Part shown: positions 5,066-20,516 of the stretch, one piece after another | Position numbering within the stretch: position 1 is the first letter of the stretch | How the letters are laid out: each line of letters opens with the position of its first letter | Virus record (IMG/VR): IMGVR_UViG_3300050821_011941 | Coordinates: 1-21,744 of that record | Length of the DNA: 21,744 bases | DNA from: a virus | Direction: 5' to 3' (one strand) | The notes under the pieces: model-generated | What the model was told of the DNA's origin: nothing | What the model saw: the letters and a program-made list of their open reading frames with translations, nothing else | The model's database searches: none | Program-made: the position numbers and the translations under genes

Positions 5066-7221
5066 AAAAACAGCATCGCAGAAATTTTAAAGGCGTCCCG
5101 CAAGCCAGCGCAAAAGTCATTCCCTGGCTCACGGTCAAAAATCTTTCCACATCCGATTGTGAAATGTGCATCAACGGGCAAATTGGAAAGTCATGGTGGG
5201 ATGATAGCGGGACCAGCTCCAAGGAATTTCGAGACGCGCTTAATGCGATACCAAATGGAAAACAAATCAAAGTCCGTATCAACAGCGAAGGCGGCTCGAT
5301 TCAAGACGGCCTCGACATTTACAACGCCATCAAAGCCCGGCGCAATGACGTTACCTGTTGTGTGGACGGTTACGCGCTTTCAATCGCTTCCATTATCGCC
5401 CTCGCGGGTGGTAAAACTGTCAGCCCGAAGTCTTCCGTTTGGATGATCCATGAACCCTGGTCAATGACCGAGGGGGACAGCGAGGACCATCGCAAATCGG
5501 CGGACATGCTCGATAAACATGCGGAAGTGCTGGCGTCCATCTATTCGGATGAAACCGGCAAGAGCAAAAAAGCCATGCGGGATGCCATGAAAGAGGAAAC
5601 ATGGTTTACCGGCGAGGAAGCGGCGGAATTCGGACTCGCTGATGAAACGATAGACGATGACGGCACGATGGCCGCGTTCGCCAAAGTCGATTTGTCCAAG
5701 TTTCAGCACGTTCCCCAAAACATTTTAGAAAAACTTTCGCGGGCTGCGATTCAGCCTGCGGCAATCCCCGTCGCTCAGGCGACACAACCCAAAGTAATAA
5801 TGAACAAAGCAAAAATGCTCGCCCTGCTCAAAAAGCATGGCATCACCCCGCCTGATAACGCGACGGATGACGAGATTTTGGCCCTCGTCGAAAACCTTCC
5901 GGTCGCACAACCTGTAACCGCGATAGCCGGTGCCGCGACCGACCCGCTCGCCGCAAAAATCATTTCGATTGAAGCACAACTCGCTTCCGAAAAGAAAACG
6001 CGAATCACAGCGTCCCTGCAAAAGTTGGTGGACAATTGCCAGCTTCCCGCCGCCGAAATGGACGGCTGGGTCGAGGATTGCGTGAATGACGAGACCATTC
6101 TCGCGCGGTTGCAGAAACTTCCCGCCGCGCGGCCAGGCGGAGAGCCAATCACCGGCATCATTGACCTCGCAAAGGAAGGCGATGCCAAGCGGCACGGCGG
6201 TTTTGAACCGCTGGCGAAAATCTATGAGACCCACAAGACGCCCAAGGCCCGAGCGGCGGCGGTCAAAAAGGATTGGGTCAGTCTCCATAATGAAGCCATC
6301 AAGCGCGATGCGCGTCGCGGCTCGAACCCGGTCAATACCAACACCTATTCAGCGACGCTTATCACGAGTTTCCTGATGGACGGCTCGGTAACTGACTTGC
6401 AAAACATCTGGGCACCGCTGCGGGCCTTCTCAATTGATTATCAGCCTGATCCCTACAAACCGAAAGCCACGGGCGAATTGAAGCACCTCATTTCCGGTTC
6501 GACGGCGCAGACGAATGCCACAAACTTTGAATCGGGCGATTCCAATGTCGGCGTTTCAACGGTGACGATGAATCAATATACCGTCAGTTTTCAAGTCAGC
6601 AATTCGGATTTGAATTCCGGTTTGCGAATGGAAAACCTCGTCACTATCAACACCGCGCAATTCGCGAACAAGGTGATTGAGATCGCGACGGCGCCAATCA
6701 CGGTTGCGAACTTTGGCAACACATACGCCCCGCTTATTTCAAGTTCGGCGGCATTCGGGTTTTCTGACCTGGCGACCTTGCAGGGAAACCTCAAAAAGTC
6801 CTACAAGAAAAATCTGATTCTTGATGGCGCTTATATCGCTCGCGTTGCGAACACTCCCGGCTTCTTCCAGCTCGCTGGCACGGTAGGCGGTGCGACGGAA
6901 GATCAGACGATGGCATGGAAAGCCTTTGGCTGGGACATGATAGCGCAGAACACCGATTGGAGCGGCGCCGATCCGCTAGTGGTCGGCTTTGCCTGCCATC
7001 CGCAAGCCATTGCCGGTATTGCCGGTATGCCGCTCGCGCCGGTTGATATTCCCGGAGGGACATTTGAACAGCAGACCTTTGAAGTTCCGGGCATCGAAAC
7101 GAAAGTGGCGCTTTATCGGTGGTTCAACCTCGCGACGCGCACCATGTGGTGCTCGTATGACATCATGCTTGGCGTCACGGCGGTTGATCTCACCGCTGGC
7201 AGTCTCGTCAAGAGTGGCTAG
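5062..7221 (+). CDS. ClpP-like head protease fused to capsid protein
   Basis: One uninterrupted 719-residue frame. Residues about 20-205 are a ClpP/S14-type head maturation protease: 'INSEGGSIQDGLDIYNAI' (73-90), the nucleophile segment 'DGYALSIASIIALAG' (Ser107), 'VWMIHEP' (His130), a likely acid near Asp151, and 'WFTGEEAAEFGLAD' (181-194). Residues about 225-380 form a linker with short helical and Ala/Pro-rich parts, as expected for a scaffold. From about 425 to the end, a 'TNTYSATLITSFL...' start and 'FQVSNSDLN', 'TMAWKAFGWDM' and 'VGFACHP' segments fit an HK97-fold-type major capsid protein, although I recognise the family only generally. In lambda these functions are split between gpC, Nu3 and gpE. 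An internal Met247 (ATG at 5800, 'MNKAKMLALLKKHG') looks like the natural start of a separate scaffold-capsid protein. The gene is coupled to the portal as ATGA. Confidence 0.85.
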   Translation: MKKQHRRNFKGVPQASAKVIPWLTVKNLSTSDCEMCINGQIGKSWWDDSGTSSKEFRDALNAIPNGKQIKVRINSEGGSIQDGLDIYNAIKARRNDVTCCVDGYALSIASIIALAGGKTVSPKSSVWMIHEPWSMTEGDSEDHRKSADMLDKHAEVLASIYSDETGKSKKAMRDAMKEETWFTGEEAAEFGLADETIDDDGTMAAFAKVDLSKFQHVPQNILEKLSRAAIQPAAIPVAQATQPKVIMNKAKMLALLKKHGITPPDNATDDEILALVENLPVAQPVTAIAGAATDPLAAKIISIEAQLASEKKTRITASLQKLVDNCQLPAAEMDGWVEDCVNDETILARLQKLPAARPGGEPITGIIDLAKEGDAKRHGGFEPLAKIYETHKTPKARAAAVKKDWVSLHNEAIKRDARRGSNPVNTNTYSATLITSFLMDGSVTDLQNIWAPLRAFSIDYQPDPYKPKATGELKHLISGSTAQTNATNFESGDSNVGVSTVTMNQYTVSFQVSNSDLNSGLRMENLVTINTAQFANKVIEIATAPITVANFGNTYAPLISSSAAFGFSDLATLQGNLKKSYKKNLILDGAYIARVANTPGFFQLAGTVGGATEDQTMAWKAFGWDMIAQNTDWSGADPLVVGFACHPQAIAGIAGMPLAPVDIPGGTFEQQTFEVPGIETKVALYRWFNLATRTMWCSYDIMLGVTAVDLTAGSLVKSG

Positions 7222-7249: not shown

Positions 7250-7693
7250 ATGAAAAAAATCATTCTCACAATCGCTGCGGTTGCGCTCGGCCTTCAGGCT
7301 TGGGCGCAAGCCCCAACTTATGACCCGCAAAACCTCGTCATCAATGGCGTGGTAAATGCGCTCGTATATAGCAACGTGAACGCAGTCATCGATTGCCGCA
7401 AACAAGCGAGCGTCGGCGTTATGATCAGCTATACCCAGATGGGAACCACAAACACGGCCACCAATTCATTCGCGTTCATTCGCGGCTTGGATGGCATCGC
7501 CACAAATTACGAGACGGCAACAAACCTGACCGTAATTACGGACGTCGCCCGAAATGGAACCGGCTATTTCTTTACCAATATTCCGACTTGGGGATGCGGG
7601 TATTTGAAATTGACGAACATCTACGACGGCAACCCGACGACATCCATGACCAATATAAATATTTGGTATGGGTCAAAAATCTCCTCTCCATAG
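7250..7693 (+). CDS. Secreted 147-aa protein after the capsid gene
   Basis: Begins with a textbook Sec signal peptide: MKK, a hydrophobic core (IILTIAAVALGL) and a likely cleavage after 'AWA' at residue 19. The mature part, about 128 residues, is rich in Asn, Thr, Tyr and Gly and reads as a β-sandwich ('VGVMISYTQMGTTNTATNSF', 'GTGYFFTNIP', 'MTNINIWYG'). It has two Cys (DCRKQ and WGCGY) that could form a disulfide after export. The gene lies 28 bases after the capsid stop and before a strong hairpin, so it is probably transcribed at capsid level. By position it would be a capsid decoration protein, but the signal peptide points to the periplasm or cell surface. It resembles the product at 9419. 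No family recognised. Confidence 0.8.
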   Translation: MKKIILTIAAVALGLQAWAQAPTYDPQNLVINGVVNALVYSNVNAVIDCRKQASVGVMISYTQMGTTNTATNSFAFIRGLDGIATNYETATNLTVITDVARNGTGYFFTNIPTWGCGYLKLTNIYDGNPTTSMTNINIWYGSKISSP

Positions 7694-7711
7694 CGGCGCA
7701 TTCAGGTGCAC

Positions 7712-7743
7712 TCCCCGCCCGCGTTTTGGCTCGCGGGCGGGGA
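7712..7743. terminator. GC-rich 12-bp hairpin, possible attenuator
   Basis: TCCCCGCCCGCG at 7712-7723 is perfectly complementary to CGCGGGCGGGGA at 7732-7743, leaving an eight-base loop. It lies 18 bases after the secreted-protein stop and 11 before the next start. No T-run follows, so it is not a classical intrinsic terminator. It may act as an attenuator, an RNA-processing or 3'-end stabilising element, or a block on ribosome access to the next gene. Its place fits a need for far more capsid than neck protein. Confidence 0.5.
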
Positions 7744-7754
7744 CAATTTGAAAC

Positions 7755-8087
7755 ATGAACCTTGCCGACACAGCATTGAATGAGGGGTTTTACAGCCTGC
7801 TGACTGTCAACGCAAGAACCATGCAGACCGTTAAGGCTCCGCTCACGCAGTTTCAGGCGATATTGAATGTCGCCAATCCTTTCGATCCCGAAACAGAACT
7901 TGGCAGCGATCCGCGCGAGAAATGCACGATGGAAGTGCTGCAACCGGGACCAGTGTTGAACGTCAATGATTTTATAACGGAATTTGGCACGGTGAACAAA
8001 TGGCAGGTGGTTTATCGGGACAACAACCCGGCGGACTTTACGGTCAAATACGTTTTGGCGGTAGTGATTGCCGCACTTGATACATGA
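7755..8087 (+). CDS. Probable head-tail connector
   Basis: A 110-residue protein with no signal peptide or membrane segment. The sequence mixes helices at the N-terminus ('LADTALNEGFYSLL') with later β-rich segments ('GPVLNVNDFITEFG', 'NKWQVVYRDN', 'DFTVKYVLAVVIAAL'). Size and position, directly after the capsid unit and before the tail completion protein, match small neck proteins such as lambda gpFII (117 residues). I see no decisive family motif, so the call is from synteny. Its start is only 11 bases after a strong hairpin, which may lower its translation. Its stop overlaps the next gene as ATGA at 8084-8087. Confidence 0.6.
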   Translation: MNLADTALNEGFYSLLTVNARTMQTVKAPLTQFQAILNVANPFDPETELGSDPREKCTMEVLQPGPVLNVNDFITEFGTVNKWQVVYRDNNPADFTVKYVLAVVIAALDT

Positions 8088-8896
8088 TGACGGTTGAAGA
8101 AATCGACATGCGCGGTTTTATATCCGGCCTTGAGGGCCTGATAGAGGAGCTTGGTATTGCCGCGCCTAAAGTCGTCAAGCATGAATTGGGCGAATTGATC
8201 GGGACGCTTGTGAGAGTGACGCCGCCGAGTGACCCCGCCAAAACCAGAAAGTCAATCGATAAGCGTGTTGATTCCACCCTTCAAGCAGCCAACATACGAG
8301 CGGCTTTGGCCAGTAAATATGCACTGAATATTCAAGGGATGAATAATACCGGCCCGGGACCATCAGGGATTACATGGTATGCCGTGACGCCCGATTTTCT
8401 TTTTGGCGTAGCTCCTGAAAGGGATGCGAGAAAAGATTCCAATGACGACATTTATCGCCTATTTAAAACAATGACGAGGAGAGGAAAGCAGCATTTGTCG
8501 TTTCGCCACCCTCATAAGCGGCAAATGGTCTCTTTGACTCAAAAGCTGTTGGTCACATCTTCGCAAAAGACCTCTGTTAAAGCCAGGCTCAAAAAATCCA
8601 TTGGCCGGCTCAAGGCCGGATGGTGCGCTTCTGTTTTTAACGGCGTAATCAAAGTATCTCGCGGCATTCCGCAATACGTTGCCCGCCACGCGCAAGGTGT
8701 TCGCGGTCGATTCAATGACGGAACGGGCAACAAAGAGCTTCCGTATTTCGAGATTGTCAACTCTGCTCTCGGCGTGGGAGAGAGCGCCTACTTTGTGCAA
8801 AAGGCTTTGGATATTCGCGCCAAAGCGATGATGGTGAATACGCAACTATTTTTCGAGGGCAAAAAACATTTAAGCGATTATGCCAAGCGCGGCTGA
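8084..8896 (+). CDS. Probable tail completion / neck protein
   Basis: A 270-residue soluble protein. The N-terminal 75 residues are helical ('FISGLEGLIEELGIAAPKVV') and lead into 'VRVTPPSDPAKTRKSI', a basic motif common at the start of tail-completion proteins. The middle has 'KKSIGRLKAGWCASVFN' followed by 'VSRGIPQYVARHAQGVRGRF', a pattern I associate with phage neck or minor tail proteins (the 'gWn...vp.wv.rH' type). The C-terminus is helical. Two start codons, at 8084 and 8087, are adjacent; the first overlaps the previous stop as ATGA. The role resembles lambda gpZ, joining head and tail, but this is inference from order and from weak motifs. The next gene starts inside its last six codons. 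Confidence 0.6.
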   Translation: MMTVEEIDMRGFISGLEGLIEELGIAAPKVVKHELGELIGTLVRVTPPSDPAKTRKSIDKRVDSTLQAANIRAALASKYALNIQGMNNTGPGPSGITWYAVTPDFLFGVAPERDARKDSNDDIYRLFKTMTRRGKQHLSFRHPHKRQMVSLTQKLLVTSSQKTSVKARLKKSIGRLKAGWCASVFNGVIKVSRGIPQYVARHAQGVRGRFNDGTGNKELPYFEIVNSALGVGESAYFVQKALDIRAKAMMVNTQLFFEGKKHLSDYAKRG

Positions 8897-9416
8897 AATC
8901 CAGGCGGTATATGATTTTGAAAACATACTTGAAGCGGCGATTGCAAGCGTGTTTGAGGCTGAGGAATTTAATGTTCTCACGCGCGCAAGCGTTGGTCAAT
9001 TTCAAGAGCAAAGGCCGCGCCTCGAAATTGTGGTGCAATCGCAAGGCGGCGCGGCGACTGGCAATCGTGGCGCAAGCAAAGCTCTGCAAGGACTCACAAA
9101 TCTCGGCACGCCGCCGACAACGGTTGTCATGTGCGCGTTTTATTCCGCTCGCGCTTTGTTCGCTTTGGTTACGAATGGGACCGAGGACGATAAAAAAGTC
9201 CATGCGGCGTATTTATATACCGCTCGCTGGATTATCGACACGCTTAGTCCAAGGGTTAATTATCAACTGCTCACAAATCACGCCGTCAACATGCCGATTA
9301 TTCCGGGCGCAACGGTCACGGCTTTTGAGAAGGATAAGGGCTATTGGATTAGCAATTTCTCGGCTGAATTCACTTTTTCGATTGTCGATGGCGCCTGGTC
9401 AAATTTAACAAACTAA
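8880..9416 (+). CDS. Probable tail terminator protein
   Basis: A 178-residue protein beginning at the ATG at 8880, 17 bases before the previous stop. After an N-terminal helical stretch it contains 'EEFNVLTRASVGQFQEQRPRLEIVV', typical of tail terminator proteins in which a charged 'RPRLEI' strand begins the core. 'AFYSARALFALVTNGTEDDKK', a helix 'HAAYLYTARWIID', and an ending 'YWISNFSAEFTFSIVDGAW' read as further strands. Lambda gpU is the functional analogue: it caps the tail tube and stops polymerisation. The order neck, terminator, tube supports the call, but the 'terminator' label remains an inference. An overlapping frame in another phase (8911-9408) is rejected as a shadow. Confidence 0.6.
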   Translation: MPSAAEIQAVYDFENILEAAIASVFEAEEFNVLTRASVGQFQEQRPRLEIVVQSQGGAATGNRGASKALQGLTNLGTPPTTVVMCAFYSARALFALVTNGTEDDKKVHAAYLYTARWIIDTLSPRVNYQLLTNHAVNMPIIPGATVTAFEKDKGYWISNFSAEFTFSIVDGAWSNLTN

Positions 9417-9418
9417 CT

Positions 9419-9865
9419 ATGAAAAAAACAAAACAACTGATTTTTACTATCACGCTTGCCTGGCTTGTGGGTAGGACGGCGTTCGCGCAATTCGTTTTCA
9501 ACCCTCTGTCGGTTGTGCCGTCTAACGCGCCTACATATTGGAATCCAACAAATGTGTTGGGAACGTTTACGATCACGCCGCATTTGGTGCAAATCAGCGC
9601 GGCGAATTTTGGTAACACGAATACGCTAACAATTGCTGTGCGTGTGGGTATTGATAATACGTTCTCGAATTATCCTGTGACATTTTTTACATTCACCAAC
9701 AATGCCACTTTTTCCAACAACGTGACAGGTGGCCCGGTAAGTTCAAACGGCACTTATACCGTTTACATCCCGCAACAAACGATCAACGTTTACGGCTCGG
9801 CCCTGGTGGCCACAACCAATGATGCGAATACAAACCTCCAGGTTGGCGCATTCTTAATCTACTAA
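9419..9865 (+). CDS. Second secreted protein, before the tail tube gene
   Basis: A 148-residue protein with an N-terminal Sec signal: MKKTKQ, a hydrophobic core (LIFTITLAWLVG) and a likely cleavage after 'TAFA' at residue 23. The mature part is rich in Asn, Thr, Phe and Val and predicts as all-β ('NTLTIAVRVGIDNTFSNYPV', 'NGTYTVYIPQQTINVYG', 'LQVGAFLIY'). It matches the 7250 product in length, composition and the run 'G-x-TNT-x-T ... R-x-G-x-D ... NY', so the two may be paralogues. It starts two bases after the tail terminator stop and precedes the tube gene, so it is in the structural operon. A periplasmic or surface product, such as receptor masking or superinfection exclusion, is as likely as a virion protein. 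Confidence 0.78.
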   Translation: MKKTKQLIFTITLAWLVGRTAFAQFVFNPLSVVPSNAPTYWNPTNVLGTFTITPHLVQISAANFGNTNTLTIAVRVGIDNTFSNYPVTFFTFTNNATFSNNVTGGPVSSNGTYTVYIPQQTINVYGSALVATTNDANTNLQVGAFLIY

Positions 9866-9893
9866 ATCTTTGGCGAAGAAAGGACAATAATCT

Positions 9894-10298
9894 ATGGCCG
9901 AAACAAACCCACAATTTAATGACGGAGCGATACCTTACGGTTCGCGGATTGAAACGTTCAATCGCTTGAATGGGCCGGGGCCGACTGGCGCACTTGGATC
10001 TTATATCCTCGAAGGTATTGCCATAACACGCGGCACCAAGCTCATTCAACGTCAGGATCAGATTGGAGGCCCGACTGGGACGGTTGGTATTCCCATGCAC
10101 GTCACTGGCAGCGCAACCGCGCAACTTGCGGCGACTATTACAGTCTTTCTGCGCAATGGCGATTGGTTTTCGGACACGTTCGACGCGACATTGGGTGTGG
10201 AATATTTCTACATTTACAACGTCAAGCACGACGAGACGCAAGAGGGCGTATGGAAGCAGACCTTTGACTTTGTTAAAGCCTACGGCACGCCTCCGTAA
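9894..10298 (+). CDS. Probable major tail tube protein
   Basis: A 134-residue protein preceded by AAAGGA at 9879-9884, a reasonable ribosome site in an operon where such sites are scarce, which fits high expression. The sequence is β-rich: 'YILEGIAITRGTKLIQRQDQ', 'TVGIPMHVTGSATAQLAATI' and 'YFYIYNVKHDETQEGVWKQT' would give the strands of the small β-barrel used by siphovirus tail tubes. 'GIPMHVTG' and the ending 'KQTFDFVKAYGTPP' suggest a conserved family that I cannot name. Position after the terminator candidate and before a chaperone-like gene and tape measure is the main support. It is short for a tube protein, so an accessory tail protein is the alternative. The stop overlaps the next start (TAATG). 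Confidence 0.6.
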   Translation: MAETNPQFNDGAIPYGSRIETFNRLNGPGPTGALGSYILEGIAITRGTKLIQRQDQIGGPTGTVGIPMHVTGSATAQLAATITVFLRNGDWFSDTFDATLGVEYFYIYNVKHDETQEGVWKQTFDFVKAYGTPP

Positions 10299-10897
10299 TG
10301 GTAATAAACCTGATAGAAAAAATTCCCGGCTTGCGGGAAGCGGTTGAGAAGGAGACTGTTTCCCGCGATGCCGCGTTTCTATGTCTGATTGAAAGTATAA
10401 ACAGCTTTGATGTATTGCCGATGACATTGAGGCATTACGTGACGTTGCGATCTGTCGGTTCGCCGGTGATGAACGGCGAAATACCAAGTCCAATTGAGCT
10501 ATTCACTTTTCTTTGGATTCTTTCGCCGCATTTTCAACCGATTGATTGCGAAGCCAAGACCGCGCTTTATGATAAGTTGAAAGCTTTGGACATTGAAGGT
10601 GTTGCGAGGACAATTACCGCCGCACGGGAATATTGGCTGGAAACGTTTTTTGATGCAAAAACTTCCCGGCATGGCAACGGCGACACTCATTATTTTTCCG
10701 ATGCGTGCGCCATCTGCGCGATGTTCGGGCGTGAATATGGTTGGTCAATGGAAGTTACAATGGCGTTGCCGATGAAATGCGTGTTGCAGTTTCAAAAGGA
10801 AATAAAACAGCAGCATGGCGGCGTGCTGGGCAACCCATCCGACATTCTTAAATCCCGCTACCTTGACTCGCTAAACCAGAAAGCGAGGAATCAATGA
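10298..10897 (+). CDS. Probable tail assembly chaperone
   Basis: A 199-residue soluble, mainly helical protein in the usual slot for a tail assembly chaperone, between the tube protein and the tape measure. It contains 'SRDAAFLCLIESINSFDVLP', 'PSPIELFTFLWILSP', 'ALDIEGVARTITAAREYWLE' and a charged C-terminus. Cys and His are scattered (DACAICAMFG) without a zinc pattern. Known chaperones such as lambda gpG/gpGT often use a programmed -1 frameshift; I found no convincing slippery heptamer near the 3' end here. It starts at a TAATG overlap and its stop overlaps the tape-measure start as ATGA, so translation of all three is probably coupled. The label is positional. Confidence 0.5.
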   Translation: MVINLIEKIPGLREAVEKETVSRDAAFLCLIESINSFDVLPMTLRHYVTLRSVGSPVMNGEIPSPIELFTFLWILSPHFQPIDCEAKTALYDKLKALDIEGVARTITAAREYWLETFFDAKTSRHGNGDTHYFSDACAICAMFGREYGWSMEVTMALPMKCVLQFQKEIKQQHGGVLGNPSDILKSRYLDSLNQKARNQ

Positions 10898-12441
10898 CTC
10901 GCGCAGAAGAAATCCTGATTCGATTGGGGATTGATAATAAGGGAGTGACAAAAGGGCTTGGTTTGGTTCAGGGCCAGATAAATGAGTTTTCGCGAACCGC
11001 GAGAAATGCAATCACCAGTGCGCTGGGTGCGTATCTGACCGAGGAAGGCATTCGTTCAATCATCGAGTATGGGAGAGAGATCGACGACACGGCAAAGCGA
11101 TTAGGCGTATCTGCGGAAGCGGTTCAAGTATGGGGCTACGCTTTGCGCAAGACCGGACAAGATCAGTCCGCGATGATTAGTTTGTTTGAGAAGATGGCGA
11201 TGGCGCGGGACAAGGCTTTGGGCGGTGAAACCGGTGCACTGAATGCGTTCAAACAATTCGGCATTTCCGTGGATGATTTGCGCAATAAGCGGTTGGAGGA
11301 TTTAGCCGATCAAATCAGCGATGTATTTAAAGCAGGCGACCCGCAAAAACTGGTGGGCGCATTGCGCGAGATTGGCGGACGCTCGGCAGGGGGCGCGGTT
11401 GACGCGCTAAAGGACGGTATTAAAGACGCACGCAAAGAGGCGAAGGATTTGGGATTAATCATGACGGACGATGTTGTCGCGCAATTAAAGGAAGCGGGCG
11501 ACCGCATGACGGAAATTGGCACCAAGCTAAAAGTATTTTTTGCCGACCCGATTGTATTCGCCATGAAATTGGTGCAATCCATTGTTGCCGAGATCGAAAC
11601 CGACTTGCAAAGAATCGGACTTCATATTGCTAGATTTACCACCGTTTTAAAGAATGGCCTTTTTAATGATGCCGCGAACGCGCGAGCACAGGAATTCTTT
11701 GACCAGGAGGAGGGTAGAATCAATCGCAATGAAATAAAGGGACTGCGTAGAATTTGGTCTAAATCTCCTTCTCGCGCTTCGGCTTTTAGCGGTGGCGGAA
11801 ATGAGAAACAGGAATCCGAGGAAATCCGGCGTGAAAACGAGGAAGCAGACCGTAAGGAACTGGAGGCGCGAGGCAAGCTCAAAACGTTGAATGAACAGCT
11901 TGCCGATTTGCGCAGGCAGGATTTTTTGGACTTTCAGGCGATGGCGGCGACGGAATTGGATTCGCTTGAGCGTGCGAAGGCGCGTAATAAACTCGCGCAA
12001 GACCATCTTGATATTGCGAACAAGGAAAAGGAAATAAAGCTGGCGACGGAAGAAATCGCCAAGAGTCAGGAGCAGCTTGATTTTAAAAGAAAAGAGCGCG
12101 AAGAAGCCGACACGATTTTCCCCACCTTGCTGCAAATCGCGCAATCCTGGTTCATGCAAAAAACATGGGGGCGCGGAATTCAATGGAGGCAAGGCCCGTT
12201 CGCCGCCTTGGCTCAAGAACTTGAAAAATTGCAGGCGGATGAGCCAAACGCAATTGCGCTTGGTAATTCCGATAGGGCTGATTGGGATAGAAAGCGAATT
12301 AAAGATATAAACGTTCAATTGCAAAATGCTGGTCTAAGGCCGAAAATTGATCATCTTGCCTCGATGGATGAGGAAATAAAAAAACTCAGAGAGGCTATTG
12401 ATAAAGGCACCGGCAAAATCCAAGTGCCGATGAACAAATAA
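10894..12441 (+). CDS. Tail tape measure protein
   Basis: A 515-residue protein that sets tail length and is injected ahead of DNA. The N-terminal 200 residues carry tape-measure hallmarks: 'IRLGIDNKGVTKGLGLVQGQ', 'GREIDDTAKRLGVSAEAVQVWG', and 'FKQFGISVDDLRNKRLEDLA', a known pattern in minor tail and tape-measure proteins. A mildly hydrophobic stretch 'KVFFADPIVFAMKLVQSIV' follows (about 213-231). A long charged coiled coil covers about 305-405 (EEIRRENEEADRKELEAR and similar). Under the general length relation (roughly 0.15 nm per residue) this would imply a tail shorter than 80 nm. No peptidase or lysozyme domain is seen. It starts as ATGA on the previous stop. Confidence 0.85.
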   Translation: MTRAEEILIRLGIDNKGVTKGLGLVQGQINEFSRTARNAITSALGAYLTEEGIRSIIEYGREIDDTAKRLGVSAEAVQVWGYALRKTGQDQSAMISLFEKMAMARDKALGGETGALNAFKQFGISVDDLRNKRLEDLADQISDVFKAGDPQKLVGALREIGGRSAGGAVDALKDGIKDARKEAKDLGLIMTDDVVAQLKEAGDRMTEIGTKLKVFFADPIVFAMKLVQSIVAEIETDLQRIGLHIARFTTVLKNGLFNDAANARAQEFFDQEEGRINRNEIKGLRRIWSKSPSRASAFSGGGNEKQESEEIRRENEEADRKELEARGKLKTLNEQLADLRRQDFLDFQAMAATELDSLERAKARNKLAQDHLDIANKEKEIKLATEEIAKSQEQLDFKRKEREEADTIFPTLLQIAQSWFMQKTWGRGIQWRQGPFAALAQELEKLQADEPNAIALGNSDRADWDRKRIKDINVQLQNAGLRPKIDHLASMDEEIKKLREAIDKGTGKIQVPMNK

Positions 12442-12443
12442 AA

Positions 12444-13205
12444 ATGCCAACACTCGCGGCAACTGTTTTGGATTTTGTTGACGGTGACCACACGCTAATC
12501 AGCTTCATCGGGTCACCAACGTTTCGCCAGCCTTTCGCCGGCGATAATGGTTATTACATTCTTGAACAGAAGTGTAGGCAATTCCTGGCGGACTTTAATG
12601 CAACGGCGCTTAATACCGCGTATCCACTTGCACCCTATTCCAGTTATATTTTGGTAAGCGAAGGTCCGTTGCAGGATGTTGGCGGCGGTTTGGTTGATTG
12701 GGTGCAAACTTACGCGCTTGTTCCTAATACGCGCAATGACCCAAGTTCCATCTCTTACAATTTTATTGGTTATTACGGCACAGTGGCAAATTTGGCGGTT
12801 GCGCTCACGTTGAAAGCGGTTGGAAGACCGCGCAATACGTTTGTGGTGAAATGCCGGATTCAAAACGATTATTATTTTTGTGCAACCGGACAAACCTATA
12901 CAACCTTCTCGCAAATTCCCATCATTCTCGCGCAACGCTATTACGTTTCGCAGGGAACCATTAGCGGTTCGACGTGGACTCCTACCTACACACTTGGAAG
13001 TGCGGCAGATTTGGCGACGGCGAGCGACCAGAATGATTTATGGAATATAGCGGATTGGGGTGGCTTGATACCTACGCGCCCGACTCAGGCGGCTTATGCG
13101 GCGATGATTCTTGCAGGCACTGAAATCGTCGCGGAAAATTCCACCATCTCGCGCTGGCAAGGGAATATTTTCCAGAGACAGACCAAATTTATAGTGGCGC
13201 AATGA
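12444..13205 (+). CDS. Hypothetical tail-tip protein
   Basis: A 253-residue protein starting two bases after the tape-measure stop. It is rich in aromatic residues and predicts as mainly β, with a regular 'ILVSEGPLQDVGGGLVDWVQ' in the first third, 'GRPRNTFVVKCRIQNDYYFC' in the middle, and a C-terminal segment 'ILAGTEIVAENSTISRWQGN'. Two Cys (KCRIQ and YFCAT) are ten residues apart. No signal peptide or membrane segment is present. Its place immediately downstream of the tape measure is that of distal tail or tail-tip hub proteins (lambda gpM/gpL region), but I see no motif of those families. The stop overlaps the next gene as ATGA at 13202-13205. Confidence 0.7.
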   Translation: MPTLAATVLDFVDGDHTLISFIGSPTFRQPFAGDNGYYILEQKCRQFLADFNATALNTAYPLAPYSSYILVSEGPLQDVGGGLVDWVQTYALVPNTRNDPSSISYNFIGYYGTVANLAVALTLKAVGRPRNTFVVKCRIQNDYYFCATGQTYTTFSQIPIILAQRYYVSQGTISGSTWTPTYTLGSAADLATASDQNDLWNIADWGGLIPTRPTQAAYAAMILAGTEIVAENSTISRWQGNIFQRQTKFIVAQ

Positions 13206-14173
13206 ACGACGAAACCAATAATGCTAATCCGAATCCCGGACCAATGTCAGGAGCGGATGACATCCCTTTATTCCATGAAGGAAGCGCGGGGCCGCAAGTG
13301 TGGAGCGCGGCGGTAATGAATCGGCTGGTGAGGCGCTTGAACGCATTGGCGAGAGGTAAAATAAATATTCAACAGGCGGAAGTAAATGCCGATGGAAGTT
13401 TTTCTTCATCTGGTAAATGGAACTTGTCAGATAATAATTTGATAATTGATTTGCTGCTGAACAATCAAGCTGGCGGCTCTGGCAGCGGTTCATCCGTTCA
13501 ACTATTCCAAGTCACTACCGCTTACACTTTGGGCGATCAATTCGTTACTTGCGGAACGGCTACGGCGACTGGCTCTAACACTTATACAAACTTAGGCGAC
13601 GGAATTAAGATTGCCTTGCCATATAAGTTGCGAACGAATACTTACAGCAGTCCGGCATTGTTTCCGACTTATGCAGTCAATGATATAATCATCGCCACGC
13701 AACCTACAGGCGGAACGGGCGTTTATTCCGGAGGCGCGGATGTCGGATGGCAGGATGTGAATTTTGATGCCCGCAGATGGCAGGATGATGATTACTTTAC
13801 TTTTGGAACGATGTTCGCCACATATTTTACCGCGACAAGCATTGTATCTGGCTTAACTGTTTCGATTGCGAGGCCAAAAGAATTTCTTAACTCAACTCCA
13901 GCACTCATTGGGAGTGAGACAATTGATGGAAATACTTTTACCTACACCTATGGCGCAAGCTCGCCATATACTTACGTTGCGCGTTTGGCTGCATGTTCGG
14001 CGCTGAGTATTCAGGAATATCAGGTCATCGTGCCACGTTATATCGCTACCAGCATCATTCATGCGAAGCTGGTTAATACCGGCATGACGGACGGTTCAAG
14101 CGACCCGATCTGCTGGCAGGAAGTGAGCGGGCGTGAGTGGGCAATGTCCTCAGTGCAATCCGGCTACGAGTAA
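13202..14173 (+). CDS. Hypothetical tail protein with glycine linker
   Basis: A 323-residue protein. A polar N-terminal segment leads to a basic amphipathic helix, 'VWSAAVMNRLVRRLNALARG' (about 38-57), that recurs in phage proteins of this type and may attach to the tail tip. A Gly/Ser linker (GGSGSGSS, about 91-98) then separates it from a β-rich, aromatic C-terminal body of about 220 residues. The layout (anchoring helix, linker, globular domain) fits a baseplate or side-fibre component, but I recognise no family. The start is an ATGA overlap with the previous gene and the stop is in a TAATG with the next. Confidence 0.7.
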   Translation: MNDETNNANPNPGPMSGADDIPLFHEGSAGPQVWSAAVMNRLVRRLNALARGKINIQQAEVNADGSFSSSGKWNLSDNNLIIDLLLNNQAGGSGSGSSVQLFQVTTAYTLGDQFVTCGTATATGSNTYTNLGDGIKIALPYKLRTNTYSSPALFPTYAVNDIIIATQPTGGTGVYSGGADVGWQDVNFDARRWQDDDYFTFGTMFATYFTATSIVSGLTVSIARPKEFLNSTPALIGSETIDGNTFTYTYGASSPYTYVARLAACSALSIQEYQVIVPRYIATSIIHAKLVNTGMTDGSSDPICWQEVSGREWAMSSVQSGYE

Positions 14174-15006
14174 TGGCAATACAACTTCCATCAGGTGTTT
14201 GGGTTGAGACCGGCGTCCCAGCCGAGAGCAAGACGCACGCGCTGGTTGAATCTCTGGCGCATCAGCGCAGAAATCAGCCTCCGGTATATGTAATGAATCC
14301 ATCGTTTCAAGTCGGCTGGTCCTCTTTATGGACATTGCCGACTCCGACAGATGGAGTGCATCCGTCATTTGACGCGGCTTTGTTTCACGTGAATTCCTGG
14401 CAACAAACAGACTCACTGTTGGAAGACAGTTGGCCAGCATTAGATCAAAACATAACAGATGCTTTTGGTTGGGAATTACTAAGTCCTAATCCCAACACTT
14501 CGTTAATTGTTGACACCGGAGCGACATGGAGCGCCGATGCGACAGGAGAACCGTATCAACTTGCTAACGGCCCCTACGCTGGCGGGCCAAAAGGCGCTTC
14601 CTATTCTCCACTCTACGCTTACTGCTTTAATTTTGGAGCGAATGTAAAAATGGGATGGTCGGAATGGATGAACCCGGTTAACCTTGTCAATGCCGACCTT
14701 TTGCTAAGTGACGACTCCTTGCTATCAATAAATCAAATCGGGATGAACTCCGATTTTTCCGGGACGCTCACATTTGGCCCGATTGTTTTGAATTTCAGCC
14801 GCGCTTCCGGATGGTCTGGCACGGGAGTATCAGGCAATGCTTTTTCAAGCATTGGTGGCCCTTCGGGTTCGGGTCAATGGGATGCCAAGCTCACCTACAA
14901 TTTTACTAATCCATGGCAAATCAGCCTCGCAATGGGGCCATTAAATGTGTCCGGTTCTGGAGGGACAAAGCAAGGCGGCGGCTCAATCGTTTATCAATTT
15001 GGTTAA
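14173..15006 (+). CDS. Hypothetical tail protein
   Basis: A 277-residue protein beginning at the ATG at 14173, whose first base is the last base of the previous stop (TAATG). A longer frame back to 14137 is possible but runs inside the neighbour. The N-terminus 'MAIQLPSGVWVETGVPAESK' is followed by Trp-rich segments ('FQVGWSSLWTLP', 'GWELLSPNPNTS', 'MGWSEWMNP'). A glycine- and serine-rich C-terminus follows ('SSIGGPSGSGQWDAKLTYNF', 'GSGGTKQGGG'), suggesting an exposed β-structure. No signal peptide is seen, unlike the fibre gene two bases downstream. It is probably a tail-tip or fibre-attachment protein by position. Function unknown. Confidence 0.7.
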   Translation: MAIQLPSGVWVETGVPAESKTHALVESLAHQRRNQPPVYVMNPSFQVGWSSLWTLPTPTDGVHPSFDAALFHVNSWQQTDSLLEDSWPALDQNITDAFGWELLSPNPNTSLIVDTGATWSADATGEPYQLANGPYAGGPKGASYSPLYAYCFNFGANVKMGWSEWMNPVNLVNADLLLSDDSLLSINQIGMNSDFSGTLTFGPIVLNFSRASGWSGTGVSGNAFSSIGGPSGSGQWDAKLTYNFTNPWQISLAMGPLNVSGSGGTKQGGGSIVYQFG

Positions 15007-15008
15007 AC

Positions 15009-17924
15009 ATGAAATCACTCATTACATTTTTTCTTCTCGCGCTTCTGTCGATCAACGCACGCGGCGAGAGCATCATCTTTCAAACCTCGAATTGGAATTT
15101 GAGCGGGACGAACGCCATGACGAACACAATTCGCGTGACGCAAGTAGGGCAGATTATCGGTGGTCAAGGCATACAAGTTGGATTGCCAATCAATCTCAGC
15201 ACGACGAACGGATTTATCACCAACGCCTTTTTAATCGGCAACTATTCGCTATCGATTTTGAATGGCGCCCCTTATCCTTACAACGGAGTTTTATATTTTC
15301 AATCGTTGGATAATACCACGACGAATTTTGTTAATTTCACGAATCGTTGGTTGAGCGGCGGGGATATTTTTGTCAGCCAACCGGGACCGGTGGGACCGGC
15401 TGGTCAATCTAATTGTGTTCAGATTACTAATGGCGTAGCCACCAATCTAACTATCAACGGAGGGACAATCAGTTCTATTAGCGGTGGACTTGCTATTACT
15501 ACCAACCAAAACGGTTCGGGTACAATGCAGGTGAATATTACCGGCACGCCCGGAACCAACGTCGGTTTTCTAAATGCCCCTCTGGTTGTGACAGCAAACA
15601 ACGGCTCCGACCATGTTCTGGGATTGCAGAACACTGACCCGCATCAATTCACGACGGTTAATTTTGTAACGGATGACCAAAATGTCGGGGCGATCGGACC
15701 GGGCAACAGCCTGAACAATATCTACCCGAACACGATGATGATCGAGGATGACACTCCGGCTCACAACGGAGTGTGGCTCGCGGACGGGAACGGGAACGTT
15801 CTTGCGGGCGGACTTTACAATCGGAATTTCGTCTGGACGACCGGCGCGACCCATTCCACCAACGGTCTGGCTATCACGACTGTAATCACGCCGTCCGGCA
15901 GCATTTCCAATGCTGGTAGTTTGACCTTTGGAGGAACTGCCAACGGGAACGGCAGCGGTCTCACGTCGCTCAACGCCTCGGCCATCAGCGCCGGGACGGT
16001 GCCGACGAACAACGAGTTCGGCCTGCTTCCCGCTCTCGCGAACAGCAACGGCATCGGCCTGACCAATTTGTCCGGCAGCAACTTCCTGCCGCAAGGGGCT
16101 AATAGCATCTTCGGCAACGGCACCGGCAGTGCCACGCAGCCGGGAGGGACCACGAACGGTTCATATATTGTCAACACGCTTACGGGTCAGCAATTCGTCG
16201 GAGGCGGCGCTGGCCTGACTGCACTCAATGGCAGCAGCATCAGCAGCGGGACGGTGGCGACGAATTATCTGCCAGCGGCGCTGGCGGCGCTGGCGGCGAA
16301 CAATGGGGTGAACCTGACGGGCTTCACGGCGGGACAGATTCCGAATCTGCCGGGGAGCATCATTACCAGCGGGACGATCAATCAGGCGCGAATACCGCAG
16401 GACGGGACAACAATCACCAACAGCGGTGGAAACCTGACGGCGGGGACGAATGTTGCGCTCTACAACGCCAGCGGCACCTTTGGCGGGACGCAGACGTTTG
16501 GGAATATGACGGTGAATGGGACTATTGCCGGAACCGCGGTCGTGCCGCTTGCGAATGGAGGCACCGGCAATGCTGTCGGGTATGCACAAGGTTTTACTAA
16601 TGGTCTGCTTCCGATGTATTTCAGCAACAACAATAATTACCCGACGCTAGTCGTGCCGCTCACTCCAGCCCAATCTTCAAACACGACCTTTAACAACCAA
16701 ATTCAGGTGTTTAGCGGCATCAGTTCCTATGGTTCTTCCGTTGGGTTTACCTATCCGTTAATCGGAACAAACTTTGTCTCAGGAGCGCAGAATTTGTGGT
16801 CAACCAATATCGACCCGGTAACCGGACTGGCAGTCACGAATTATATCCAGAACGCGGGCAATATGTTTCAGGTGGGACAGGTGCCATTGCAGTCGGGCAC
16901 TAATAAGACCATCAATTCATCTCCCAATATTGGCCAAGGCTGGGCGCAAGCATGGTCTCCCGCGCAGCCATATTTCATCGGCGGATTTTCCAGCGGCCAC
17001 CAAATCGCGGGGATGGTTTACGAGCCGTCAAACGTGACATTCTACTTCAATCCAGTTATTCCAACAAATTACGATGGACGCGGAGACAACTTCGCAAAAT
17101 CTTACGTAATCTTTGACGGCGTTCATACCAATGTTGCCCTGACAAATTTGCTTCAATTTCAGGTGAGTGCGCAAAACTTTACGCTTGATAGTTTTGGAGA
17201 TTTCGCAAGCACTTTAGGTGGAAATGTTTATTTCAACTCGTCTAAGGCTCAGTTTACGAATCTAGTGCTTAATCAAGCCGGGAATACTGGAGGTTCCGAT
17301 TTTACTCCAGTCATTTCCATTCCGAACGCTGCTGGAACATCGGGAGGCTGGACAGAAGGCTTGCGAGATGATTCTGGACATTCTTTATATTGGGGCACGG
17401 ATTCAACCGTCATGCTTCAACTGGCAGGAGACAGTTCGGCAGTGCAATCACTTGTTCCGTTACTTGCCAATTCAGGAACATTCACAAATGGCATTGTCGG
17501 CAACACTGCTTCAAATAATCCACCCGCTGGCAACGTCGGTGAATTGGTTCAAACACTCGTGGCTCAAGGCTCCGCTGTCACCTGCTCGACTGGTGTAGTA
17601 ACCAATGTGGCTCAGGTCATTCTTACTGCTGGGGATTGGGATGTGGAGGGCAATGTAAATTTCACTAATGCTTCGGCTACTGTTACCCAGGAAGTAGCAG
17701 GTATATGGCCAACTACCTTAAGTGCGTCAGGAATTCCGACTGATGGAAGTGAGGTTATCTCTGGGGTGTTATCCACCGTTGTGACGGGGGCAGACTCAAT
17801 CACCTTGCCGCGCAAACGTATAAATACTTCCGTTACCACTACAAATTATCTGGCAGCTAAAAGCACATTCTCCGCTGGCACGGTGAAGGCTTATGGGCAA
17901 ATTAGCGCAAGGCGGGTGCGATGA
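15009..17924 (+). CDS. Tail fibre with signal peptide
   Basis: A 971-residue fibre, probably the receptor-binding device. The start chosen is the ATG at 15009, two bases after the previous stop; a frame back to 14913 lies inside that gene. The N-terminus is a Sec-type signal (MKS, core LITFFLLALLSI, possible cleavage after 'ARG' near residue 18). A Thr/Asn-rich β domain follows, then a short collagen-like 'GPVGPAG' (about 125-131). Next are three related repeats: 'GNGSGLTSLNASAISAGTVP' (near 314-333), 'GGGAGLTALNGSSISSGTVA' (near 398-417) and a variant ending 'GSIITSGTINQARIP' (near 449-463). The C-terminal 100 residues ('GDWDVEGNVNF' ... 'YGQISARRVR') match a β-sandwich tip domain found on many tail fibres. 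The signal peptide is unexpected for a fibre assembled in the cytoplasm. Confidence 0.85.
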   Translation: MKSLITFFLLALLSINARGESIIFQTSNWNLSGTNAMTNTIRVTQVGQIIGGQGIQVGLPINLSTTNGFITNAFLIGNYSLSILNGAPYPYNGVLYFQSLDNTTTNFVNFTNRWLSGGDIFVSQPGPVGPAGQSNCVQITNGVATNLTINGGTISSISGGLAITTNQNGSGTMQVNITGTPGTNVGFLNAPLVVTANNGSDHVLGLQNTDPHQFTTVNFVTDDQNVGAIGPGNSLNNIYPNTMMIEDDTPAHNGVWLADGNGNVLAGGLYNRNFVWTTGATHSTNGLAITTVITPSGSISNAGSLTFGGTANGNGSGLTSLNASAISAGTVPTNNEFGLLPALANSNGIGLTNLSGSNFLPQGANSIFGNGTGSATQPGGTTNGSYIVNTLTGQQFVGGGAGLTALNGSSISSGTVATNYLPAALAALAANNGVNLTGFTAGQIPNLPGSIITSGTINQARIPQDGTTITNSGGNLTAGTNVALYNASGTFGGTQTFGNMTVNGTIAGTAVVPLANGGTGNAVGYAQGFTNGLLPMYFSNNNNYPTLVVPLTPAQSSNTTFNNQIQVFSGISSYGSSVGFTYPLIGTNFVSGAQNLWSTNIDPVTGLAVTNYIQNAGNMFQVGQVPLQSGTNKTINSSPNIGQGWAQAWSPAQPYFIGGFSSGHQIAGMVYEPSNVTFYFNPVIPTNYDGRGDNFAKSYVIFDGVHTNVALTNLLQFQVSAQNFTLDSFGDFASTLGGNVYFNSSKAQFTNLVLNQAGNTGGSDFTPVISIPNAAGTSGGWTEGLRDDSGHSLYWGTDSTVMLQLAGDSSAVQSLVPLLANSGTFTNGIVGNTASNNPPAGNVGELVQTLVAQGSAVTCSTGVVTNVAQVILTAGDWDVEGNVNFTNASATVTQEVAGIWPTTLSASGIPTDGSEVISGVLSTVVTGADSITLPRKRINTSVTTTNYLAAKSTFSAGTVKAYGQISARRVR

Positions 17925-17965
17925 CCACCCCGCCCCAACCCGAATGGACGCCGAGCGATAAATAA
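17921..17965 (+). CDS. Possible 14-aa peptide ORF
   Basis: ATG at 17921 overlaps the fibre stop as ATGA and reads MTTPPQPEWTPSDK to a TAA at 17963-17965, four bases before the next gene. The overlap matches the coupling used through the operon. It may simply keep ribosomes moving across the gap to the lysis genes. At 14 codons it can equally be chance. Confidence 0.2.
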   Translation: MTTPPQPEWTPSDK

Positions 17966-17968
17966 TTT

Positions 17969-18466
17969 ATGCAAAACCCTGAGTGGATAACAGCATTGGG
18001 AACCGTGGCCGGTGTTGTCATCGCGTGGATTGTGGCTCGCGGCGCGGGGCGCAAGGAAGCGGAGCGCTACAGTCAGGAGCAGTCGCGGGAGAAGGAGCAG
18101 TTCAAAATTGAACTCGCCGTCTGGCGTTCAAAAATCGAATTTATGGTAGGCGAACTTTGGGCGAGCCAGGGGCGGCGCGGCACAACCGCTGCGGTCATCA
18201 AAGGGCTGGGCGAAGTGCACAGCCCGCTCAAGGCGACGGTGAAGGGCCGGGAAATATTCGCCGCCATCACGCCGGACATTGACGCTTTTTACCGCACGGA
18301 AGGGCACACGCTGGACGAAGGCATGTTGCGGGCCAAGCTCGAAAGCCTTTTTGGCGACCGCATCATGCGCGAAATCTGCATCCCGCACCACTTCATGCAG
18401 AGCGAGTGCATCGAGATTGCCGTGGCGATAGTGCGCGAGGACTGGGAGAAGGAGCACGCGCAATGA
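17969..18466 (+). CDS. Membrane-anchored protein, lysis region
   Basis: A 165-residue protein with one N-terminal membrane segment (about residues 6-23, 'WITALGTVAGVVIAWIVARG'), then a charged, probably coiled-coil stretch ('GRKEAERYSQEQSREKEQFK') and a soluble, mixed-charge domain. The membrane segment lacks a typical cleavage site, so an anchor is more likely than a cleaved signal. The layout (short anchor plus long coil) resembles inner-membrane spanin or holin-associated proteins, and it opens the set of genes leading to a cell-wall enzyme. No family recognised. The stop overlaps the next gene as ATGA at 18463-18466. Confidence 0.65.
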   Translation: MQNPEWITALGTVAGVVIAWIVARGAGRKEAERYSQEQSREKEQFKIELAVWRSKIEFMVGELWASQGRRGTTAAVIKGLGEVHSPLKATVKGREIFAAITPDIDAFYRTEGHTLDEGMLRAKLESLFGDRIMREICIPHHFMQSECIEIAVAIVREDWEKEHAQ

Positions 18467-18765
18467 AACTCTCGCTCAAGACGGTTATCTGGATTTGGGT
18501 GCTGGCCACGATTCGTTTTATCGTCAAGTGTGGCATCAGCGTCGGCGCGTTGTTTCAAGCTATGTCGCTGGCGTGGCCGGACATGACGCCGTTTCAAAGG
18601 CAATGCTTTGATGTGAGTGTTTGCATGGTGGTTTTGAATCACACGGACAGCTTTGTGACCAACGTTGTCAAGGCGCTGAAAGAGGGCAAGGAATTGCCGC
18701 CCGATGACAACGGCGACACTCAATTTATCGCTCGACAGACAACCGCAACTGAAATAAAAAACTAA
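18463..18765 (+). CDS. Holin-like small membrane protein
   Basis: A 100-residue protein from the ATG at 18463, overlapping the previous stop (ATGA). A longer frame to 18406 lies inside the neighbour. A basic MKLSLK start precedes a hydrophobic region (about 8-35, 'TVIWIWVLATIRF' and 'GISVGALFQAMSLAW'). A weaker hydrophobic stretch 'DVSVCMVVLNH' (about 49-59) may be a second membrane segment. The C-terminal 30 residues are hydrophilic. Size, hydrophobic N-terminus, charged tail and position before a cell-wall enzyme fit a holin, but holins share no diagnostic motif. Confidence 0.6.
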   Translation: MKLSLKTVIWIWVLATIRFIVKCGISVGALFQAMSLAWPDMTPFQRQCFDVSVCMVVLNHTDSFVTNVVKALKEGKELPPDDNGDTQFIARQTTATEIKN

Positions 18766-18770
18766 ACATC

Positions 18771-19436
18771 ATGAAAAAGTTCCTTCTTAGCATCGTGCTC
18801 GCCCTGTCCGTGCTCACGGTCAAGGCGCAGACTAATACCTCAACTAACGGCCTGCCAGCCTTGCAACGTGTCGGCAATGATCTACTGGCGTTTCTTCAAG
18901 ACAACAACGCCTTCGGTGGAACCAACAGCCTACGCATCGTCGCCGGCCCCGTGGAAAGCGGCAATCATTGGGGCGGACTGTTGGAAACGCATATCCCGCT
19001 CGCCGCCAATGGTCAAATCTCACCCGGCTTCGCTGTGATGTATTTGAACAAGACCTTTTACGACGCCAACATCAACCTGAATCTTTCGAGCACCTTCGAT
19101 GTGTTCAAACTTTTTGGTTCTACCAATCTGAGTTTGCCGCTTAATATTGGCATCGAAAGCGGGCCATACGTCAACATGCACGATAGCAGCATCGGTGCTC
19201 AATCCGGAGCGTTCCAAACGATTGACACTAAACTAGGCGTCGGGCATCTGTGTTTGTCCGCGACCGAGATCACGGCGAGCACCTTTCCTAAGCCGATTTT
19301 TGGCGCGTTGCTTTCCTATGGCATCGGCGCAAATCCGGCGAACGACTCGGCGCAGGCAAAGTTTTCACGTTTCTACCAAGCGAGCCTGAATCGCGGTTCG
19401 CTTGAAATACCTTGGGATTCGCGTGCGAGGTTTTGA
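18771..19436 (+). CDS. Secreted protein, possible outer-membrane β-protein
   Basis: A 221-residue protein with a clear Sec signal (MKKFLLSIVLALSVLTVKA, cleavage after residue 19 before 'QTNTS'). The mature part has alternating polar/apolar strands ('NSLRIVAGPVESGNHWGG', 'PGFAVMYLNKTFYDANINLN', 'LSLPLNIGIESGPYV', 'LGVGHLCLSATEI') that fit a small outer-membrane β-barrel or a periplasmic β-protein. It ends with 'PWDSRARF' rather than the terminal aromatic pattern of every barrel, although the last residue is Phe. It sits between the holin candidate and the cell-wall enzyme, so an outer-membrane lysis role, or a cell-surface change during infection, is possible. I do not recognise a family. The stop overlaps the next start as TGATG. 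Confidence 0.75.
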   Translation: MKKFLLSIVLALSVLTVKAQTNTSTNGLPALQRVGNDLLAFLQDNNAFGGTNSLRIVAGPVESGNHWGGLLETHIPLAANGQISPGFAVMYLNKTFYDANINLNLSSTFDVFKLFGSTNLSLPLNIGIESGPYVNMHDSSIGAQSGAFQTIDTKLGVGHLCLSATEITASTFPKPIFGALLSYGIGANPANDSAQAKFSRFYQASLNRGSLEIPWDSRARF

Positions 19437-19912: not shown

Positions 19913-20100
19913 AACTAACCATTATTCTTAACGTCCTCGAAACAAATGTTGACCTTCCGCCGCAGTTTGCCTGCTTGGATTATTTGGAACTCGCCAAAGC
20001 CAGCATCCAGCAACCGCGAGAAAATTCCGCACTGCCGATCACGGGAAACATTTCACTGCCAGACGGCCAATCAGTTGGCGAATGGAGGATTGAACCATGA
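19909..20100 (+). CDS. Small hypothetical protein
   Basis: A 63-residue soluble protein. It starts at an ATG overlapping the enzyme stop (ATGA at 19909-19912) and ends in another ATGA with the next gene, so it is coupled on both sides. The sequence opens 'MKLTIILNVLETNVDLP', continues 'CLDYLELAKASIQQP', and ends 'ISLPDGQSVGEWRIEP'. It has no signal or membrane segment beyond a short apolar start. No family recognised. The tight coupling and conserved-looking composition support it as a real gene, possibly an accessory to the enzyme before it. Confidence 0.65.
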   Translation: MKLTIILNVLETNVDLPPQFACLDYLELAKASIQQPRENSALPITGNISLPDGQSVGEWRIEP

Positions 20101-20516
20101 AATCCACCCCGCTCCTTTACCCCTCCATCATCGCCGCAATCGGCATCGTCATTCTTGGCTTGCTGGCTGCGCATGGAAATGTTCCGCCGATACCGGGACA
20201 GAAATTGCAATCGCCGAAAGCTGCGGCATTGGCGAACATGGCGGGGAAGGCGATGGTGATTGCCACAACGAGCGTCATCACCATCATTACAAACCAAGGT
20301 GTCATCGCCGCTGATTTCAAGGCAACTCAAATTCAAGGGCTTCGGGCGGGATTTGTTTACCGCGCAGGCATGACGATGACGAATGGTTGGAAAGTTTTGG
20401 GAACGGCTCCATATCCCACAAACGGCGGGACGGTCTCCATGCAATTCTCCGGCACAAATCTGCCCGCGCTTTATTTCAAGGCGTTTTATCAGTTTCCGAA
20501 CCCGACGAATTATTGA
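20097..20516 (+). CDS. Membrane-anchored or secreted protein ending the late operon
   Basis: A 139-residue protein with an N-terminal hydrophobic segment (about 9-25, 'PSIIAAIGIVILGLLAA'), then 'HGNVPPIPG', which could be a cleavage region (after 'AHG') or the exit of an anchor. The rest would be periplasmic: a second apolar stretch 'MVIATTSVITIITN' (about 53-66) and a β-rich end ('TVSMQFSGTNLPALYFKAFY') resembling the fibronectin-like ends of secreted proteins in this genome. It could be a second spanin-type component, but there is no lipobox Cys. It begins as ATGA on the previous gene and its stop is seven bases inside the facing minus-strand gene. Confidence 0.65.
   Translation: MKSTPLLYPSIIAAIGIVILGLLAAHGNVPPIPGQKLQSPKAAALANMAGKAMVIATTSVITIITNQGVIAADFKATQIQGLRAGFVYRAGMTMTNGWKVLGTAPYPTNGGTVSMQFSGTNLPALYFKAFYQFPNPTNY

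Follow-up and report, generated by a model that had tools for sequence, protein, structure and literature searches.

Sec-type signal peptides are predicted on the main tail fibre and on three small proteins encoded within a 21.7-kb viral contig (the window, that is, the whole stretch of 21,744 nucleotides analysed here, which is a complete record but probably a genome fragment). The same arrangement is found in distant relatives and in cultured phages; a possible reading is that in some phages the receptor-binding parts leave the cytoplasm and are added to the particle late. The best explanation, to which we give about an even chance, is that the fibres are exported and cleaved, stay in the periplasm, and become part of virions when the cell lyses. 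This explanation is favoured because the signals occur well above chance and are maintained on the fibre or spike throughout the deep portal lineages (two lineages are without them), and because signal-peptide fibres of Cellulophaga phages are annotated in virions.

The window has genes for terminase, portal, a ClpP-type protease-capsid fusion, neck, tail, and tape measure, as well as for the fibre of 971 aa, and it includes a putative lysis region (Table 1). Since a tape measure protein is encoded, the particle is long-tailed and probably siphovirus-like. The fusion protein is 47% identical to its counterpart in the related contig L002; head protease and major capsid protein form one ORF in the window and two genes in L043 (11494-13810), L081 (4131-6447), and L082 (1863-4196).

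Table 1. Coordinates of the signal-peptide genes of the window, their parts, and neighbouring genes.
Feature	Position	Strand	Basis or remark
Portal (context; query for relatives and tree)	3530..5065	+	phrog_21 E 1.3e-53; listed start, true one maybe slightly downstream
ClpP-type head protease fused to major capsid protein (context)	5062..7221	+	phrog_94 head maturation protease E 1.7e-64
SP1, 147 aa, right after the protease-capsid gene	7250..7693	+	L002 homologue E 5e-11; family of 8
Signal peptide of SP1 (post-capsid gene)	7250..7306	+	Sec/SPI-type, predicted site AWA↓Q
SP2, 148 aa, between neck/tail genes	9419..9865	+	pairwise BLASTP with SP1 E 6e-4, partly across signal peptide
Signal peptide of SP2	9419..9487	+	predicted site AFA↓Q
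Tape measure protein (context)	10894..12441	+	phrog_8462 E 4.6e-10
Main tail fibre, 971 aa	15009..17924	+	phrog_11393 tail fibre E 1.6e-15, residues 811-971; tblastn to cultured-phage tail fibres
Signal peptide of main fibre	15009..15065	+	predicted site ARG↓E
Fibre N-terminal beta domain after signal peptide	15066..15398	+	related domains lack signal peptide in other genes; low-confidence model, pLDDT 64
Fibre C-terminal domain	17463..17921	+	common to KpV74 fibres (no signal peptide) and PBR31 and BcepC6B signal-peptide proteins
SP4, 221 aa, in putative lysis region	18771..19436	+	unassigned family; no relative found
Signal peptide of SP4	18771..18827	+	predicted site VKA↓Q
Possible fifth exported or membrane-anchored protein	20097..20516	+	heuristic score 5.4, signal peptide or anchor

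Signal peptides were called with a strict rule-based heuristic in place of SignalP, which looks for a positive n-region, an uncharged hydrophobic core, and agreement with the -3/-1 rule, and which recognised 5/5 textbook E. coli signal peptides as a positive control. By this heuristic the four window proteins have the features of Sec/SPI substrates (positive n-region, hydrophobic h-region, and a -3/-1 motif near residues 15-30), and they score 6.0-7.1. When N-termini of the window's own proteins are shuffled, a score of 6 is reached in 19/10,000 draws (0.19%). None of the other checked window genes scores 6 or more, and a lipobox with Cys at +1, as used by signal peptidase II, is absent from all four genes. 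The predicted N-termini, with the cleavage site marked by an arrow, are MKKIILTIAAVALGLQAWA↓QAPT for the gene at 7250, MKKTKQLIFTITLAWLVGRTAFA↓QFVF at 9419, MKSLITFFLLALLSINARG↓ESII at 15009, and MKKFLLSIVLALSVLTVKA↓QTNT at 18771. The original prediction had placed four such genes at these positions, and all four ORFs indeed sit there, each starting with ATG and each with a Sec/SPI-type N-terminus by the heuristic. It had also noted Gln after the cleavage site in three of the four, as is found here; the fibre site is weaker. Its statement that one of the four is the main fibre is borne out by the tail-fibre C-terminus (phrog_11393) of the 15009 product. The possible fifth case, 20097, stays below 6 with a score of 5.4; it is borderline and could be a signal anchor.

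The fibre ORF stays open upstream to 14913. A start at 15009 nevertheless fits, and is preferred because it lies 2 bp past the preceding stop and because homologues begin at the equivalent place. The starts of fibre homologues often overlap the upstream stop as ATGA, and a 4-bp overlap of this kind backs the start codons in L004, L005, L043, L081, and L082. Homologues that begin downstream of the hydrophobic segment were searched for, and none was seen in the signal-peptide group; fibre or post-capsid homologues in 14 further contigs retain the peptide. An artefact of wrong starts or chance hydrophobic N-termini is thus highly improbable. The heuristic does yield some false calls at internal starts (those recognised, for example in protease genes, were excluded from the curated list), but shuffled sequences reach the threshold in only 0.2% of draws, the peptide is conserved in many contigs, the starts overlap upstream stops, and the annotated starts of cultured phages show the same form.

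Relatives were gathered by capsid and portal searches of viral contigs, and most are fragments. In divergent contigs, with portals 35-55% identical, a signal peptide is present both on the long fibre or spike and on the small gene right after the capsid gene. The post-capsid slot (adjoining the capsid gene, or separated from it by a single short gene) holds a signal-peptide gene in the window and in L002, L004, L005, L037, L039, L040, and L041, and the mature products are 20-34% identical to window SP1; in L003 this slot has no signal-peptide gene of the SP1 kind. The long fibre or spike carries a signal peptide in the window, L002 (where the fibre is incomplete and ends at the contig border), L003, L004, L005, L040, L043, L081, L082, L097, L101, and L102, and L039 and L041 each have a cut-off signal-peptide gene at the contig end that is likely a fibre. 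Within the signal-peptide contigs, calls were made for 0/104 genes upstream of the portal and for 33/142 downstream, a few of the 33 being internal starts; the other portal contigs gave 15/371, these being small lipoproteins or false internal starts. Contigs without the trait do have fibre-like genes, which are bare of signal peptides. When mapped on the portal tree, the trait occurs throughout the deep lineages, and two changes are needed to account for its absence, one in a shallow, heavily sampled clade and one in L113.

The original prediction took the repeated pattern as a sign of an export-linked layer in this phage group, and not as accidental. This is supported by two syntenic positions conserved across deep lineages and by a bias towards Gln. 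The layer extends beyond this group: three families of Cellulophaga phages have it, and so do two cultured proteobacterial phages (of Burkholderia and Xanthomonas). Several neighbouring arrangements were noted along the way. The densest run observed is in L102 (8620-14460), where five consecutive genes (869, 148, 121, 251, and 562 aa) have signal peptides. Small signal-peptide proteins near the fibres of L004 (20231-20683) and L101 (20888-21391) look fibronectin-III-like by eye. In the slot equivalent to window 9419, L003 has two paralogous signal-less proteins of 169 and 193 aa (14097-14606 and 14621-15202).

The form of the signals bears on whether they are cut. The peptides vary in sequence and length while their character is kept. 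Thus in L043, L081, and L082, which are close relatives, the core has substitutions and an indel, yet hydrophobicity and the Gln are kept and the mature start QRTPRVVDSAAALVALTPSA is constant. An A/G↓Q site is present in 20/28 signal peptides of the group, compared with an expectation of 6% (binomial p 7e-19, several of the 28 being closely related). In Bacteroidetes, Gln follows the cleavage site in 71% of cases as a species average, in a survey not covering all phyla (PMC5837995); the share in the group equals this average, and the window has 3/4. Because of this cleavage-site and Gln pattern we infer cleavage by signal peptidase. If instead the hydrophobic N-terminus were left uncleaved, it could act as a membrane or tail anchor that docks the fibre into the virion or directs fibre folding to the membrane. 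Such an anchor would explain presence in virions without late joining, and window 20097 is indeed more anchor-like than cleavable; however, good -3/-1 sites and a Gln at +1 in 20/28 would then have no cause to persist, and core length and sequence drift freely, so that we regard this reading as quite unlikely.

The signal peptide is also an exact N-terminal add-on to a fibre domain, because the same fibre N-terminal domain is found peptide-free: when the signal-less L004 proteins at 13160 and 13683 are aligned with the signal-bearing fibres of L040 and L102, the match starts at residue 3 of the former and at residues 15-20 of the latter. Disulphide formation was considered as a reason for export and set aside, as the Cys pair of SP1 in the window and L002 is missing in L004 and L005.

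Judged by their domains, the long proteins of exported type are phage fibres or spikes. The C-terminal domain (phrog_11393) of the window fibre is about 35% identical to that of the tail fibres of Klebsiella phage KpV74 and its relatives, which differ in having no signal peptide and another N-terminal domain. The spikes of L004 (PF12708, 2e-16) and L005 (PF13229, 7e-12) both contain a beta-helix lyase domain. The L004 spike is of the same class as the pectate-lyase tailspikes (PF12708), among which a signal peptide is present on the spikes of L004 and L005 and missing from the tailspike of phage PBR31, described as pectate-lyase class (PMC10975493). Short signal-less proteins are encoded just upstream of the signal-peptide spike in L004 (13160-14513), L005 (8716-9237), and L043 (14660-15139); in L004 and L005 they look like N-terminal domains of fibres, and in L004 one more small gene intervenes. 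In all three contigs the gene adjoining the spike overlaps the spike start by 4 bp. The fibre may be split in these phages, with an anchor that stays in the cytoplasm and a distal part that is exported.

The small proteins SP1, SP2, and SP4 are putative structural proteins. The mature part of SP1 is predicted to be an all-beta, jelly-roll-like sandwich (pLDDT 77, pTM 0.71). Fold searches with SP1 gave no confident match, only weak jelly-rolls such as CBM35 (Z 8.5), a phage cement protein, and fibre and lectin domains, and these were too weak to assign a function. Judging from their pairwise similarity, SP1 and SP2 may be distantly paralogous. Relatives of SP4 were sought and none was found, and searches of viral contigs with SP1 or SP4 alone gave no matches; the aligned SP1 family is too divergent to serve as a search profile. 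By eye, SP4 (18771-19436) has alternating beta-like segments and a terminal Phe, and could be a Lom-like outer-membrane protein.

Evidence that such fibres reach the particle comes from cultured phages, with virion membership taken from public records that mark MS/MS-assigned proteins. Like the window group, Cellulophaga phages phi19:1, phi10:1, and phi18:3 (NC_021799, NC_021802, and NC_021794) have fibre or pectate-lyase genes with signal peptides and mostly Gln at +1, arranged as a cassette of consecutive genes. They differ in having MS/MS virion annotation and a known Bacteroidota host. For phi19:1, phi18:3, and phi10:1 together, this annotation assigns 11 signal-peptide proteins to the virion, and in nearly all of them the residue after the predicted cut is Gln. 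In particular, the four consecutive fibre/spike genes gp101-gp104 of phi19:1 are all so marked (INA↓Q, VSA↓Q, LNA↓Q, and SFG↓K), while the MS/MS-marked core capsid and tail proteins of this phage that were checked have no signal peptide. Signal peptide and MS/MS mark also coincide in phi18:3 gp085-087 and phi10:1 gp091-094, these two phages having been covered in part. The cassette is present as well in phi19:3, phi46:3, Ingeline_1, and Nekkels_1, making three phage families altogether. It should be noted that MS/MS annotation is silent on where a protein starts, and that proteins released at lysis could co-purify. The public annotation nevertheless supports the presence of signal-peptide fibres in purified virions of other phages. 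No similarity to the window fibre is detectable in the sequences of the Cellulophaga fibres; these support the type of arrangement, and by analogy the window fibre would be a virion protein. Not all Bacteroidota phages have the trait, because the checked genes of Flavobacterium phage FCL-2 and Cellulophaga phages phi38:1 and phi46:1 are nearly blank: FCL-2 has a single lipoprotein-like gene, and phi46:1 a single weak call, in a gene not virion-marked.

The pectate-lyase domain is also found in phi17:2 (49% identical) on a signal-less N-terminus, which by this comparison is a natural swap of a signal-bearing for a signal-less N-terminus. The proteins phi19:1 gp102 and phi18:3 gp086, from different families, are 82% identical over residues 1-118 and divergent afterwards, as expected if the N-terminal part behaves as a conserved docking module with swapped ends. 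This identity followed by divergence, together with the MS/MS notes on all four consecutive phi19:1 genes, speaks against free secreted depolymerases or adhesins that aid the exit of progeny from capsule or matrix, or that serve lysogen conversion, with virion detection due to contamination. We consider that alternative unlikely, even though in L004 no more than about 80 residues separate the predicted cleavage site from the pectate-lyase domain, with no long separate head-binding domain, and the lyases of Ingeline and Nekkels have been described in one sentence as "also carrying signaling peptides", in a paper that discusses roles in the tail and in progeny escape (PMC8776804).

A further alternative places the action of the exported receptor-binding proteins at the host envelope, in or on which they would bind new receptors or glycans from inside, block superinfection, or stop progeny from sticking to debris, their presence in virions being secondary or absent. 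This would suit receptor-binding and depolymerase domains, and there is a precedent for the gene position in lambda Lom, which is exported to the outer membrane and whose gene is flanked by those of spike and fibre (PMC12309495). Lom resembles the window proteins in being phage-encoded, in having a Sec signal, and in its gene lying near fibre genes; unlike the fibre it is a membrane protein placed in the host, neither fibre nor spike. The two proteobacterial phages point the same way. PBR31 gp35 (L119, 3650-4459, annotated "putative structural protein") and BcepC6B gp19 (L121, 4001-5074, "tail fiber protein") have clear signal peptides and share the C-terminal domain of the window fibre, but they are short (about 270-357 aa), adjoin a holin gene near the lysis genes, and are extra to a separate signal-less spike or fibre next door; they may not be the main receptor-binding proteins. 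Against action in the envelope, the signal-peptide proteins of phi19:1, phi18:3, and phi10:1 are annotated as virion-detected, and every long fibre-like gene in the available stretches of L097 and L102 is signal-bearing, with no separate signal-less fibre visible. We therefore judge it improbable, though to be taken seriously. Of the three options originally offered for the signal peptides (uncleaved peptides, late joining to the particle, or a function on the cell surface), the MS/MS annotations favour a role in the virion and weaken a purely surface role, and do not separate cleaved from uncleaved forms.

Three observations bear on the host of the window phage. A prophage search gave only head-protease matches, in Vibrio and Amycolatopsis, and no informative relative; the terminase and portal are weakly similar to those of an Akkermansia phage; and the weak use of Shine-Dalgarno sequences is compatible with several phyla. 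Akkermansia phage Moulinsart was rejected as a trait-bearing relative, for it has terminase, portal, and protease ancestry in common but its structural genes are without signal peptides. Signal peptides following the Bacteroidetes Q-rule have been noted by the authors of a study of Porphyromonas gingivalis phages (PMC10367356), where the cases differ in being five genes of unknown function that were read as modifying the host surface, and not fibres. A paper treating exported tail fibres was not found in open-access full texts; earlier mention is possible in the subscription literature, including the original Cellulophaga proteomics.

In the favoured reading of export followed by joining at lysis, the fibre and its small companions would be synthesised as Sec preproteins that cross the inner membrane and are cut by signal peptidase I, which would usually leave an N-terminal Gln. 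The exported products would wait at the envelope or in the periplasmic space during the cytoplasmic assembly of heads and tails. Lysis would then bring the two pools together, and the exported fibres or spikes would attach to finished tails. Joining at lysis is the hypothetical step, but in extracts, finished particles can still acquire tailspikes in the case of P22 and long tail fibres in that of T4, and therefore late attachment is physically reasonable.

In the textbook view, tailed phages assemble entirely within the cytoplasm. A broader proposal, which we hold tentatively and as somewhat less than an even prospect, is that a two-compartment route is widespread in some tailed phages of diderm hosts: heads and tails would be cytoplasmic, fibres or spikes and possibly the small jelly-roll protein whose gene adjoins that of the capsid would be exported by Sec, and particles would become infectious only at lysis. 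Candidates in culturable phages are already present in public MS/MS annotations, so the idea is directly testable. If true, it would revise the view of phage assembly, of the timing of infectivity, and of superinfection control.
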